Source of the DNA: Litorilituus sp.
GTDB lineage: Bacteria; Pseudomonadota; Gammaproteobacteria; Enterobacterales; Alteromonadaceae
Assembly (NCBI GenBank): GCA_030754235.1
Contig: JASMAS010000097.1
Span: 41,196 to 105,195, forward strand
Direction of reading: 5' to 3'
DNA: 64,000 nt
Shown: positions 20,201 through 37,583 of the stretch, piece by piece
Numbering within the stretch: position 1 is the stretch's first letter
Layout of the letters: each line of letters opens with the position of its first letter
Translations under genes and position numbers: made by a program
Notes under the pieces: model-generated
The model's database searches: none
Told to the model about the DNA's origin: nothing
What the model saw: only the letters and a program-made list of their open reading frames with translations

Positions 20201-21103
20201 TTAATTTACCTTAGCGATAAATTCATTTAATTCAGCTAAATTAGCGTAAGATATCACCAACTTACCTTTGCCTTTTTTATTATGACTTACAGCAACTTTA
20301 AGCCCTATTTTATCTGCTAAATCTTGTTCTATATTATTTGTTACTTCGTCTTTCTCTTTTACTGGCTTTTCTTCACTTGGGTTTTGAATTTTTTTGATCA
20401 GCGCTTCTGTTTCTCTTACGGTTAACTCTTTAGCAGCAACGGTTCTTGCAGCACCAGCTTGCAAGCTATCAGCAAGTGATAACAAGGCACGTGCATGACC
20501 CATTTCAATATCACCATTTTCTAAGAAAGTTTTCACTTCATCATTCAAATTGTTTAAGCGGAGTAAATTTGTCACCGTAGTACGTGATTTCCCCACAGCA
20601 AGGGCTACTTCTTGGTGTGTTAAATCGAACTCTCTCAGTAAACGCTCTAATGCAATAGCTTCTTCCATGGCATTGAGATCTTCACGCTGAATGTTTTCAA
20701 TTAAGGCAATAGCAACAGCAGATTCATCCGGCACATCTTTAATTAAGCAGGGGACTTCAGTTAATTGTGCTAATTGTGCTGCTCGCCAACGACGCTCACC
20801 GGCAATAATTTCATACTTTCTATCACCAGACTTATCTTCACTGATTAAACGCACGACAATTGGCTGAATAATACCTTGAGATTGAATAGATAATGAAAGC
20901 TCTTCTAAAGCGGTATCTGACATATCTTTTCGTGGCTGATATTTACCAGGTGATAATTGGTCAATAGCAATCTTACTCAAATCACCATCTTTGGGTTTTA
21001 GTTCAGAGTTATCGGCGATATCATCTTTACTAGGCGCTTTTACTTGGGGCGTTAGAAGGGCATCAAGACCTCTGCCTAAACCTCTTTTTTTTGCTGGGCT
21101 CAT
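20201..21103 (-). CDS. parB: Chromosome partitioning protein ParB
   Basis: 300 aa; RRGLGRGLDALL-like N-terminus, IAGERRWRAAQLA, ALIENIQREDLNAMEEA. Confidence 0.97.
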   Translation of the reverse strand: MSPAKKRGLGRGLDALLTPQVKAPSKDDIADNSELKPKDGDLSKIAIDQLSPGKYQPRKDMSDTALEELSLSIQSQGIIQPIVVRLISEDKSGDRKYEIIAGERRWRAAQLAQLTEVPCLIKDVPDESAVAIALIENIQREDLNAMEEAIALERLLREFDLTHQEVALAVGKSRTTVTNLLRLNNLNDEVKTFLENGDIEMGHARALLSLADSLQAGAARTVAAKELTVRETEALIKKIQNPSEEKPVKEKDEVTNNIEQDLADKIGLKVAVSHNKKGKGKLVISYANLAELNEFIAKVN

Positions 21104-21117
21104 AATTTTCCTTGGAC

Positions 21118-21939
21118 TTATTCGGCAGTGGTTGTACTTTGTTTTGTTGATTTATTGATCGTTACTTGTTTATTTACTGGATTTTTACGTAAAACCTCAC
21201 CGGCTAAAGCTAAATAAGCTTTAGCGCCTGTTGAAGATTTATCATAGTACATGGCAGGAGCCCCAAAACTCGGCGCTTCAGCTAAACGCACATTACGTGG
21301 AATAACACTACGGTAAACTTTATCACCAAAATGACGTTTTAATTGCTCTGAAACATCATTGGCTAAGCGATTACGTGGATCATACATAGTGCGTAAAATA
21401 CCTTCAATATGCAGCTCGCTATTAACCACCGAGGTTAACTTTGAAATAGTATCCATTAAAGCGGTTAACCCTTCAAGTGCATAATATTCACACTGCATTG
21501 GTACTAAAACTGAATCTGCAGCTGTCATCGCATTGACCGTGAGCATATTAAGTGAAGGAGGGCAGTCAATTATAATAAAGTCGTAATAATCTTTAACAGG
21601 CGCTAAGGCTGTCTTTAAACGTTGCTCACGAGCAAAAACTTCCATTAATTTAATTTCGGCGGCGGTTACATCAGTATTTGCTGCTAATAAATCATATAAG
21701 CCCGACGTTTCAGTTTGTACAACCTCTTCAACTGAATGTTCATCAATCAATAGCTCATAACAAGTAGAAGGTACTTCATATTTATCAATGCCACTGGCCA
21801 TAGTGGCATTGCCTTGCGGATCAAGGTCAATTAATAAAATTTTTCGCTTGGTCGCTGCCAATGAAGCAGCCAAATTTACCGCAGTTGTTGTTTTTCCAAC
21901 ACCACCTTTTTGATTTGCAACAGCTATTATTTTTCCCAC
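21118..21939 (-). CDS. parA: Chromosome partitioning ATPase ParA (Soj)
   Basis: 273 aa; ANQKGGVGKTTTAVNLAASLA. Confidence 0.97.
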   Translation of the reverse strand: MGKIIAVANQKGGVGKTTTAVNLAASLAATKRKILLIDLDPQGNATMASGIDKYEVPSTCYELLIDEHSVEEVVQTETSGLYDLLAANTDVTAAEIKLMEVFAREQRLKTALAPVKDYYDFIIIDCPPSLNMLTVNAMTAADSVLVPMQCEYYALEGLTALMDTISKLTSVVNSELHIEGILRTMYDPRNRLANDVSEQLKRHFGDKVYRSVIPRNVRLAEAPSFGAPAMYYDKSSTGAKAYLALAGEVLRKNPVNKQVTINKSTKQSTTTAE

Positions 21940-24542: not shown

Positions 24543-24977
24543 ACAATTTTTACCTTAGAAATTAGAATAAAAAATAATTAAAGCCATTTGCTTTAAGAAA
24601 ATTAAGGAACGTATTTTAGCTTTTTTTTATCAATAGGGAAATGATCAAATTCGTAAAAAGATCAGCTCTAGATCTCTCTAATATATAAAAAGATCTTTAT
24701 AAAGATCTTGTTATTATTACTTATTAAGGAAGCGGTTTTGTGTGTGTAAGTGGTTTTTTTTTATATATATTAAGGGTTTGATTAAATGATAAGGTTGTGA
24801 TCTAACTTTGATCAAGGCACAAATAAGCCCTGATCAAAACCATTAGTTATACACAATGAAATTAATATCAAAATAAACTAACTGAATAATAATAAGAAAT
24901 TAATAGTTTATTCACTTATTTATCCACAGAAGGGTTTTTGATATACCTCTTTTGTTGATAACGTATGAGCAACCAGC
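24543..24977. other. Putative chromosomal origin of replication (oriC)
   Basis: mnmG/mioC intergenic region; eight GATC sites at 24643, 24660, 24671, 24692, 24704, 24799, 24810, 24832; AT-rich AAAGATCTTTATAAAGATCTTGTTATTATT; DnaA boxes TTATACACA (24847-24855) and TTATCCACA (24920-24928). Confidence 0.88.
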
Positions 24978-30959: not shown

Positions 30960-31390
30960 TCGTTAATTTACTAAATGATCTATTTTTGATCTATACGATC
31001 TTACTGATGAACTGCGTGATCCGATAAAAATATCCACAGATTTATCATCACTTTCTTCCCGTTGCTTATAATTTGACCTTTTCTTTGCTTTTACTACTAA
31101 TAGCCAAATCAACTATTAATTTTATTTTAGCATTTTTTTAATCTATTCATTTAATTTAATTTACTAATATACAATGGGTTAGCGTATTCTGGGATGTTTT
31201 TTTTAATTTAACACAAAAGTCAATATTGCACTTGTGGATAAGTACAGAGATAATGGCTATATATAATAAAAATTTTCGCTTGCGCTATCTTTTTAAAAGC
31301 TCATTCTCATTTATTTTAAGCTTTCTTATATAACTTACTTTATTCACATTTTATTTTCGAATAGCTGGTAGTAATAGTCGCAAGTAGATC
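30960..31390. promoter_or_regulatory. dnaA upstream regulatory region with GATC cluster and DnaA-box-like sites
   Basis: GATC at 30977, 30988, 30997, 31018; ATATCCACA (31030-31038); perfect box TTATCCACA on the minus strand at 31233-31241. Confidence 0.65.
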
Positions 31391-31392
31391 AG

Positions 31393-32781
31393 ATGGTCTT
31401 TTTGGAGTTTTGGTTGGACAATTCACTCTGGCAACGATGCCTTTTAGCACTGCAAGAAGAACTGCCAGCGCAGCAGTTTAGTATGTGGATTCGCCCATTA
31501 CAATGTGTTGTAAATGATAATATTGTTACTTTATATGCACCTAATCGTTTTGTTCTAGATTGGGTGCGAGACAAATACGTAAATAGAATCAATGAACTGA
31601 TTACTTTACACGATAACGATGACGCTTATTTGTTGAAATTTGATGTTGGTAGTAAACCTTTAGCGCAAAATTCACCAGCACATAGCAACACTAATTTAAC
31701 TCCTTCTAACCATAGTAGCACTAAAGCCACTACGGTTAATGATTCTGCTCCCAATCTTCCTAAAAAAGCGAATGTTCGCGTTAAATATACTTTTGATAAT
31801 TTTGTCGAGGGTAAATCTAACCAGTTGGCTAGAGCGGCTGCTTCACAAGTAGCCGACAACCCGGGTGCTGCTTATAATCCACTTTTTATTTATGGTGGTA
31901 CTGGCTTAGGTAAAACCCATTTGTTACATGCGGTAGGTAATGGTATTTTACAAAACAATCCTAATGCCAAAATTGCTTATATGCACTCAGAACGTTTTGT
32001 ACAAGATATGGTTAAAGCACTCCAAAATAATGAAATGGAGAAGTTTAAGCAATACTATCGTAGTGTTGACGCATTACTTATAGATGATATTCAATTTTTT
32101 GCAGGTAAAGATAGAACACAAGAGGAATTTTTCCACACCTTTAATGCTTTACTTGAGGGTAATCAACAAATTATTTTAACCAGTGATCGTTACCCTAAAG
32201 AAGTTGCCGTAGAAGATAGACTTAAATCTCGTTTTGGCTGGGGGTTAACTATTGCTATAGAGCCGCCAGAACTTGAAACACGTGTTGCGATACTTAAACG
32301 TAAAGCGCAAGAAAGTCATATTAACTTAGCTGATGAAGTTGCTTTTTTTATCGCTAAAAGACTCCGCTCTAATGTTCGAGAATTAGAAGGGGCCCTTAAT
32401 CGCGTTATAGCTAATGCTAACTTTACTGGACGTGCCATTACTATTGATTTTGTTAGAGAAGCATTGCGTGATTTACTCGCTTTACAAGATAAATTAGTGA
32501 CAATTGATAATATTCAACGTACCGTTGCAGAGTATTATAAAATAAAAGTAGCAGACTTATTATCTAAACGTAGAAATCGCTCTGTTGCTAGACCTAGACA
32601 AGTTGCAATGGCATTATCTAAAGAGCTAACAAATCATAGTTTACCTGAAATAGGTGATGCTTTTGGTGGAAGAGACCATACAACAGTTCTACATGCTTGT
32701 CGTAAAGTAAAATCTTTACGGGAAGAGTTGCATGACATTAAAGAAGATTATTCTAACCTTATTAGAACACTTTCATCATAA
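31393..32781 (+). CDS. dnaA: Chromosomal replication initiator DnaA
   Basis: [45 protein letters not shown]. Likely real start is TTG at 31414 (GGAG at 31404-31407). Confidence 0.98.
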
Positions 32782-32841: not shown

Positions 32842-33951
32842 ATGAAATTTTCACTCAACCGAGAATTATTACTTAAGCCATTACTGTTAGTTTCAGGTGC
32901 TGTAGAGCGTAAAAGTACTTTGCCAATATTAGGTAACATCCTTTTTGATGTTAGTGAGCAATCACTTACTCTCACAGCTACTGATTTAGAGCTAGAAATG
33001 GTCGCTTATGCTGAAATAGATAATCAAGGTAGTGTTGGGAAAATTACTATTCCTGCACGAAAATTGCTAGATATATGCAAAAGCTTGCCTGAAAATTCAA
33101 ACATCACTTTTAGTTCGCAAAATGATACTGATACAGTAACACTTAGTTCTGGACGCAGCCGCTATTCACTTTCTACGCTCGCAGCAGATGATTTCCCTAA
33201 TATCGAGGAGTGGAAAGGTGACGTAGAGTTTAAGTTACTCAAATCAGAATTACTTCGCTTGATTGAAAGCACGCACTTTTCTATGGCAAACCAAGACGTT
33301 CGTTATTACTTAAATGGTATGTCTATTGAAAGTGAAGGTCATGAGATCAGATCTGTCGCAACGGATGGTCATAGGTTAGCTATTTGCAAGATATCCAATG
33401 AGTCACTATCACTTCCAGCACGACAAGTGATAGTTCCTCGAAAAGGTATTTTAGAAATTATCCGCCTGCTCAGTCCTGTCGACGATGAAATTCAGGTATA
33501 TTTAGGATCTAATCATATTAGAATAATCGACAGTGAGTTTTCGTTCACCAGTAAATTAGTCGATGGTCGCTTTCCTGATTATCGCCGTGTATTACCACGC
33601 AATGGTGATAAAATCTTCGTGACTAATAAAGAAGAGCTCAGACAAGTGCTCTCTCGTGCATCAATTCTATCAAATGAAAAATTTAAAGGGGTTAGGTTGA
33701 ATTTTCTAAATTCACTTCTAAAAATAACAGCCAATAACCCTGAGCAAGAGCAGGCAGAGGAAGAATTAGAAATAGACTTTCCCTATGATGAATTAGAAAT
33801 AGGTTTTAATGTTAGCTATGTATTGGATGTTCTTAGTGCTATTAAGGACGAAGAAGTTAAATTTACTTTAGCTGATGCTAATTCTAGTGTCGTTATCGAA
33901 GGTGCTCAGACAGGCGAAGCACTTTATGTTGTTATGCCTATGCGTTTATAA
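32842..33951 (+). CDS. dnaN: DNA polymerase III beta sliding clamp
   Basis: 369 aa; LLLVSGAVERKSTLPILGNILF; C-terminal YVVMPMRL. Confidence 0.98.
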   Translation: MKFSLNRELLLKPLLLVSGAVERKSTLPILGNILFDVSEQSLTLTATDLELEMVAYAEIDNQGSVGKITIPARKLLDICKSLPENSNITFSSQNDTDTVTLSSGRSRYSLSTLAADDFPNIEEWKGDVEFKLLKSELLRLIESTHFSMANQDVRYYLNGMSIESEGHEIRSVATDGHRLAICKISNESLSLPARQVIVPRKGILEIIRLLSPVDDEIQVYLGSNHIRIIDSEFSFTSKLVDGRFPDYRRVLPRNGDKIFVTNKEELRQVLSRASILSNEKFKGVRLNFLNSLLKITANNPEQEQAEEELEIDFPYDELEIGFNVSYVLDVLSAIKDEEVKFTLADANSSVVIEGAQTGEALYVVMPMRL

Positions 33952-33994: not shown

Positions 33995-35128
33995 ATGGCT
34001 GTTGCTCGATTAATTACCCAAAATTTCAGGAATTTACAGGGTAATACTATAGATTTTAATTCGAAGCTTAATTTTTTTATCGGCGACAATGGCAGTGGAA
34101 AAAGCAGTTTACTTGAAGCTCTTTTTTTTCTTGGTCATGGTAAATCTTTCAGGACAACTAAAGTAGAAAGTCTTGTTTGTTATCATCAATGTAAATTTGT
34201 TTTAAGTGTCAAAGACGATAAAAATTGTCAATTGGGTTTGAGTAAGGAGCTAGATACAGGTAACACTTTAATTAAAATTGATGGTCAACGTCGCCATCGT
34301 TTATCTGACTTAGCAAAAAACATTGCTATTCAGATTATAACACCTGAAAGTTTTAAGCTTTTTTTTGGTGGTCCCAAAGAGAGAAGGCGCTTTGTTGATT
34401 TAGGGATGTTTCACGTGAAACATCAATTTTCCGATCAATGGCGTGAGTTCTCAAGGGTCCTTAAACAAAGAAATGCATGTATCAGAAATAAGGTCGATGA
34501 TGCCACATTAACTTATTGGACAGACTTGTTATGTCAGCACTCTCAGAATGTTTCAATCCTGCGTCGAGAGTATACAGAGAATTTATTTACAGAGTTGAAG
34601 CAATGGTTGAATATTCTGTTACCATCAGTTAATGAAAATATTAGTGTGCAGTTTACTCAAGGTTGGCCTCTAAAAAAAGAGTTATGCCAGGTTTATTTAG
34701 ACAATAAAGAGAAAGAGTTACAATTTGGATATAGCCTTTACGGTGCACATAAGTTTGATGTCAAGTTTATGTTGTCCAAGCAACCGCTAGAATCACATCT
34801 TTCTAGGGGACAACAAAAGTTGTTTTTATTGGCTTTAACTTTTGCCCAATCAAGTTTAATGGCAAGAGTGAAGCGAATAAAACCAATTTTATTGATTGAT
34901 GATATAGGTGCAGAGTTAGATGAAAATTCTAGAGCTACCTTATCCACAGCAATAGAGCGGTTAAATTGCCAAGTAATTGTAACTGCAATTGAAAAGAGTG
35001 TAATATATCCTCTAATTCAGCAAAGAAGTGTTGAAGAATATAATATGTTTCACGTGAAACATGGTGAGGTATTACCAGCAAAATGGAACCCAGCTGATTC
35101 TGATAACGTATCAGAAAAAGTGCAATAA
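33995..35128 (+). CDS. recF: DNA replication/repair protein RecF
   Basis: 377 aa; FFIGDNGSGKSSLLEALFFLGHGKSFRT; LSRGQQKLFLLALTFAQ. Confidence 0.97.
   Translation: MAVARLITQNFRNLQGNTIDFNSKLNFFIGDNGSGKSSLLEALFFLGHGKSFRTTKVESLVCYHQCKFVLSVKDDKNCQLGLSKELDTGNTLIKIDGQRRHRLSDLAKNIAIQIITPESFKLFFGGPKERRRFVDLGMFHVKHQFSDQWREFSRVLKQRNACIRNKVDDATLTYWTDLLCQHSQNVSILRREYTENLFTELKQWLNILLPSVNENISVQFTQGWPLKKELCQVYLDNKEKELQFGYSLYGAHKFDVKFMLSKQPLESHLSRGQQKLFLLALTFAQSSLMARVKRIKPILLIDDIGAELDENSRATLSTAIERLNCQVIVTAIEKSVIYPLIQQRSVEEYNMFHVKHGEVLPAKWNPADSDNVSEKVQ
34407..34422. promoter_or_regulatory. parS site 1 (ParB binding), within recF
   Basis: Exact TGTTTCACGTGAAACA, perfect 16-bp palindrome. Confidence 0.93.
35046..35061. 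promoter_or_regulatory. parS site 2 (ParB binding), within recF
   Basis: Exact TGTTTCACGTGAAACA, perfect 16-bp palindrome. Confidence 0.93.
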
Positions 35129-35138
35129 GAGTGAATAG

Positions 35139-37583
<2,445 letters not shown>

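Follow-up and report, generated by a model that had tools for sequence, protein, structure and literature searches.

Introduction

The closest described counterpart of the locus analyzed here belongs to Pseudomonas aeruginosa. PMC3909081 and PMC5521831 place two parS sites of this species, parS1 and parS2, in recF and, in agreement with PMC4368675, about 4 kb clockwise of oriC. Both sites, TGTTCCACGTGGAACC (parS1) and TGTTCCACGTGGAACA (parS2), are bound by ParB (PMC4368675). The silent mutations introduced in that study fall at the third codon positions of V-FHVE-P in parS1 and M-FHVE-H in parS2, and they spare position 2 of parS2, which fits an ATG codon. A strain in which parS2 alone was intact behaved as the wild type, with normal segregation, and mutation of all of parS1-4 produced the par-mutant phenotype (PMC4368675). 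In Caulobacter crescentus, recF and gyrB are included in an insertion hot spot for ectopic parS, as described in PMC5815017.

The location of parS in recF is already known in one species, P. aeruginosa. A class-wide centromere that writes two motifs into RecF appears to be unreported: the portions of the parS and recF literature covered, a scope that excludes the 2007 parS survey by Livny and colleagues, held no description of class-wide conservation or of a consequence for RecF. Priority for the class-wide recF location is therefore uncertain.

Results

The window (the whole stretch of Litorilituus sp. DNA analyzed, 64 kb) includes the following features:

20201-21103, minus strand: parB (TIGR00180 above cut-off; motifs GERRWRA and ENIQRE), predicted reader of the sites
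21118-21939, minus strand: parA, partition ATPase (ParA-type families), adjoining parB
31393-32781, plus strand: dnaA (TIGR00362), marker of the origin region
32842-33951, plus strand: dnaN (TIGR00663)
33995-35128, plus strand: recF (TIGR00611, E=5e-93), host of both sites
34407-34422: parS site 1, TGTTTCACGTGAAACA, exact match, recF codons 138-143 (MFHVKH)
35046-35061: parS site 2, TGTTTCACGTGAAACA, exact match, recF codons 351-356 (MFHVKH)
35148-37583, plus strand: gyrB (TIGR01059)

The original prediction, made from the sequence of the window, was that recF contains two perfect parS palindromes read in a common frame as (M)FHVKH and that the window has no exact copy besides these. A pattern search bore this out. 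Both 16-bp palindromes match parS TGTTNCACGTGNAACA perfectly and occupy exactly the positions given above; they start at offsets 412 and 1051 of the recF ORF, both in phase 1, and are read M-FHVK-H, with MFHVKH encoded twice. No further match to TGTTTCACGTGAAACA at 0-2 mismatches was found in the 64-kb window outside the two sites. When up to 3 mismatches were permitted there were four matches, a number that was not equalled by any shuffle. All genome-wide site counts in this work are pattern searches; the one proposed along with the prediction covered the whole assembly (3.33 Mb, 112 contigs, completeness 100) and detected two exact copies, none outside recF, as well as four similar sites at 2 mismatches. 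Base composition predicts 0.0013 exact copies in 3.33 Mb. Chance occurrence of the two palindromes is ruled out by the shuffles and by this expectation.

The sites are origin-proximal. The cumulative GC-skew minimum is located at 31358, immediately upstream of dnaA, and the distance from the dnaA start is 3.0 kb to site 1 and 3.7 kb to site 2. The cognate parB and parA are both encoded in the same genome; the separation across the origin, initially estimated as about 12-15 kb, was measured as 12.5-14.2 kb from site 1, with both genes on the opposite side of dnaA. DnaA-box-like sequences, TTATACACA and TTATCCACA, are found at 24847-24928, just outside mnmG, and further DnaA boxes lie upstream of dnaA at 31233 and 31340; the origin could be either near mnmG or upstream of dnaA. 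A perfect DnaA box, TTATCCACA, is present inside recF at 34940-34948, about 100 bp ahead of site 2. It is probably there by chance, because the remaining recF genes of the genus sample lack such a box.

Both sites are kept at identical recF codons in 39 of 39 genomes of the genus. Exact copies of TGTTTCACGTGAAACA number two in 32 of the 38 relatives, one in five and none in one, and all 39 recF genes match the degenerate form TGTTYCACGTGRAACA at both positions. When the 1116 16-nt windows of recF were ranked within the genus, site 1 was first and site 2 was third. The changes observed inside the sites, a silent one from TTT to TTC and one from AAA to GAA that replaces Lys by Glu, are both compatible with parS. 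Silent drift of the palindrome in close relatives while FHVKH is kept, the outcome that the original prediction had named as speaking against it, was not seen: neither CAC to CAT (His) nor GTG to GTN (Val) occurs at either site across the 39 genomes. The Val codon of the motif is GTG in 37 of 37 cases, compared with 4.6 expected from the codon usage of the gene. Judging from these substitutions, the entity conserved in the genus is the DNA and not the protein.

An alignment beyond the genus, which had also been proposed, showed that the nucleotides of the palindrome are kept past the amino acid constraint. The class sample consisted of recF from one genome per family of Gammaproteobacteria, 87 of them with ParB, and a site was scored when the homologous recF position had at most 1 mismatch to TGTTYCACGTGRAACA. 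Among the 87 genomes with ParB, 81 carry at least one site, and 67 of these have one at each of the two positions. Val is encoded by GTG in 74 of 75 cases at each site, against 22.4 (site 1) and about 24 (site 2) expected, and His is encoded by CAC in 79 of 82 cases at site 1 (34 expected) and 73 of 76 at site 2 (32 expected). When 194 recF columns were scanned, motif codons took all of the top seven places for synonymous constraint. The synonymous tests for DNA-level selection on the sites were positive in both genus and class, and the constraint at silent positions holds over a recF third-position GC of about 0.2 to 0.9. Site 1 often has C in place of the final A (FHVEP), which is the form of P. 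aeruginosa parS1, and genomes of family f141 (L250-L252) have sequences matching P. aeruginosa parS1/parS2 at the homologous recF positions.

Some genomes with ParB (G065, G152, G157, G167 and family f3) lack the recF sites, and G065 has three parS sites elsewhere in its genome; the recF location is therefore not obligatory. L240 (G259), another genome with ParB and no recF sites, has four clustered parS-like sites downstream of recF, at 1806-2333 from the recF start and probably in gyrB, as if the centromere had shifted by one gene. In the order members L099, L101, L109, L114 and L116, site 2 is intact, site 1 is altered or lost, and additional parS sites lie downstream, 3.5-6 kb from the recF start.

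Across 203 gammaproteobacterial genomes, a recF site is present in 169 of 179 with ParB versus 3 of 24 without it (Fisher p=4e-18, a value that ignores relatedness). The three exceptions are G069 and G267, which hold a one-mismatch relic (TGTTCCGCGTGGAACA), and G137, which has both recF sites and an 81% complete assembly in which ParB was not found. On the tree there are 4 ParB changes and 3 supported independent pairs, and the sign test is not significant because independent losses are too few; in 200 random pairings, the site follows ParB in 2.2 pairs on average and opposes it in almost none.

The amino acids of RecF follow the DNA site. Among the places in genomes with ParB at which the DNA has at most 2 mismatches, 248 of 249 encode FHV or FHM, compared with 2 of 37 of the other places; in genomes without ParB this motif is almost always missing from RecF. 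The Pseudomonadota classes examined outside Gammaproteobacteria have no parS at these recF codons. Their RecF commonly has F at site 1 and F-x-V at site 2, and three genomes have FHV at site 2, but with other codons. These residues suggest that the sites probably arose at positions where RecF was already partly compatible with them or tolerant of the residues. The expectation that the site and RecF constrain each other held mainly in one direction: since FHV vanishes once the site or ParB is lost, the data support a constraint that is mainly one-way, in which the DNA site would dictate the amino acids. In the reverse direction, what was found points to a probable prior partial compatibility of RecF.

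These results bear on the possibility that selection acts on the protein, with RecF needing FHV[EK] and the likeness to parS being incidental. The motif is highly conserved as amino acids in the class, and its partial presence in other classes points the same way. Selection on the protein, however, does not explain silent positions constrained far beyond gene codon usage whatever the GC content, nor a genus that accepts Lys to Glu yet no silent His or Val change, nor the other RecF residues found in genomes without ParB and in genomes with ParB that lack the site. Protein-only constraint was rejected on the synonymous tests and the loss of the motif, and we regard this explanation as very unlikely.

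A palindrome alone does not specify its binding protein, and a reader other than ParB with affinity for a CACGTG core can be imagined. This is extremely improbable, given that the 16-mer falls within the parS consensus family (PMC4368675), that the presence of the site follows the presence of ParB, and that the matching P. aeruginosa sites are bound by the ParB of that species. We give just as little credence to the idea that the recF sites are relics of parS and that the active centromere is elsewhere. Relics do exist in the ParB-free relatives G069 and G267, and parS sites are found elsewhere in some genomes with ParB; in the window genome and the genus, however, every site is either a perfect copy or compatible with parS, and the window's assembly has no further exact copy.

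Some genomes have altered parS cores. In G196 (L169 and L299), both recF positions have TGTTTCATATGAAACA, with a CATATG core; the genome contains no further copy and no canonical parS site within one mismatch, and its RecF has Met in place of Val at both motif positions. With its altered ParB recognition helix, described below, G196 possibly represents a natural switch of parS specificity. In G123, TGTTCCACATGGAACA is present at both recF positions and no other match was found in its genome. Such concerted changes would be expected from a changed ParB specificity. In a post hoc comparison of about 20 ParB sequences, the recognition-helix segment GxSR is SRSR in G196 and GLSR in G123, whereas the rest of the set has G[KR]xR; these differences are suggestive only.

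Discussion

The proposal that the chromosomal centromere lies in recF is sustained by conservation in the genus and the class, codon constraint, co-occurrence with ParB and the function published for parS1 and parS2 of P. aeruginosa. We are highly confident that the two palindromes serve the chromosomal ParABS system as its parS centromere sites; from that evidence we infer that they are occupied by ParB and functional in this bacterium. ParB dimers would load onto the recF sites, some 3.0-3.7 kb from the origin, and then spread across dnaA-dnaN-recF-gyrB, and ParA would separate the ParB-parS complexes once replicated.

The distribution of the sites suggests that parS in recF is an ancient arrangement across Gammaproteobacteria, with the centromere dictating a short stretch of RecF. 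An ancestral gammaproteobacterial recF may have gained two in-frame parS sites that were later inherited, and a single ancestral origin is the history that we infer. Selection for ParB binding would since have fixed the codons xTG-TTY-CAC-GTG-RAA-CAN, and RecF would therefore have [MLV]-F-H-V-[EK]-[HQ] twice, with site 1 often ending in P. It is likely, in our judgment, that the FHV[EK] of gammaproteobacterial RecF is the amino acid shadow of the ancestral parS pair and is not there for RecF function, having persisted in the class for most of its history, disappeared along with ParB, and changed jointly with the parS core in G196 and G123. If the DNA site dictates these residues, conservation of the RecF motif should therefore not be taken as a sign of RecF function. 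The locus would be a class-wide example of a chromosomal DNA site that imposes sequence on a conserved, unrelated protein, and it would account for the differing RecF residues at both places in ParB-free members of the order. The sequence of recF alone could then predict the centromere position and the ParB specificity, including in genomes with changed cores.

Three known systems come closest to this locus. As in the window, the ParABS centromere of C. crescentus is close to the origin, but its native parS cluster is located elsewhere. The Spo0J parS sites of Bacillus subtilis also cluster close to the origin, as those in the window do. To our knowledge, none of them is in recF, and the FHV motif is absent from the Bacilli RecF sequences examined. 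They belong to the same 16-bp consensus family and number about ten (PMC4368675). P. aeruginosa has ten parS, with parS3 and parS4 nearby, compared with two exact sites in the window's assembly, and its site sequence is TGTTCCACGTGGAAC(C/A), unlike the TGTTTCACGTGAAACA of the window. Like the window sites, its parS1 and parS2 are two in recF, and they would be read in the same frame (V-FHVE-P and M-FHVE-H); this common frame and motif is implied by the published wild-type and mutated sequences, and was matched from the publications and not from the PAO1 genome.
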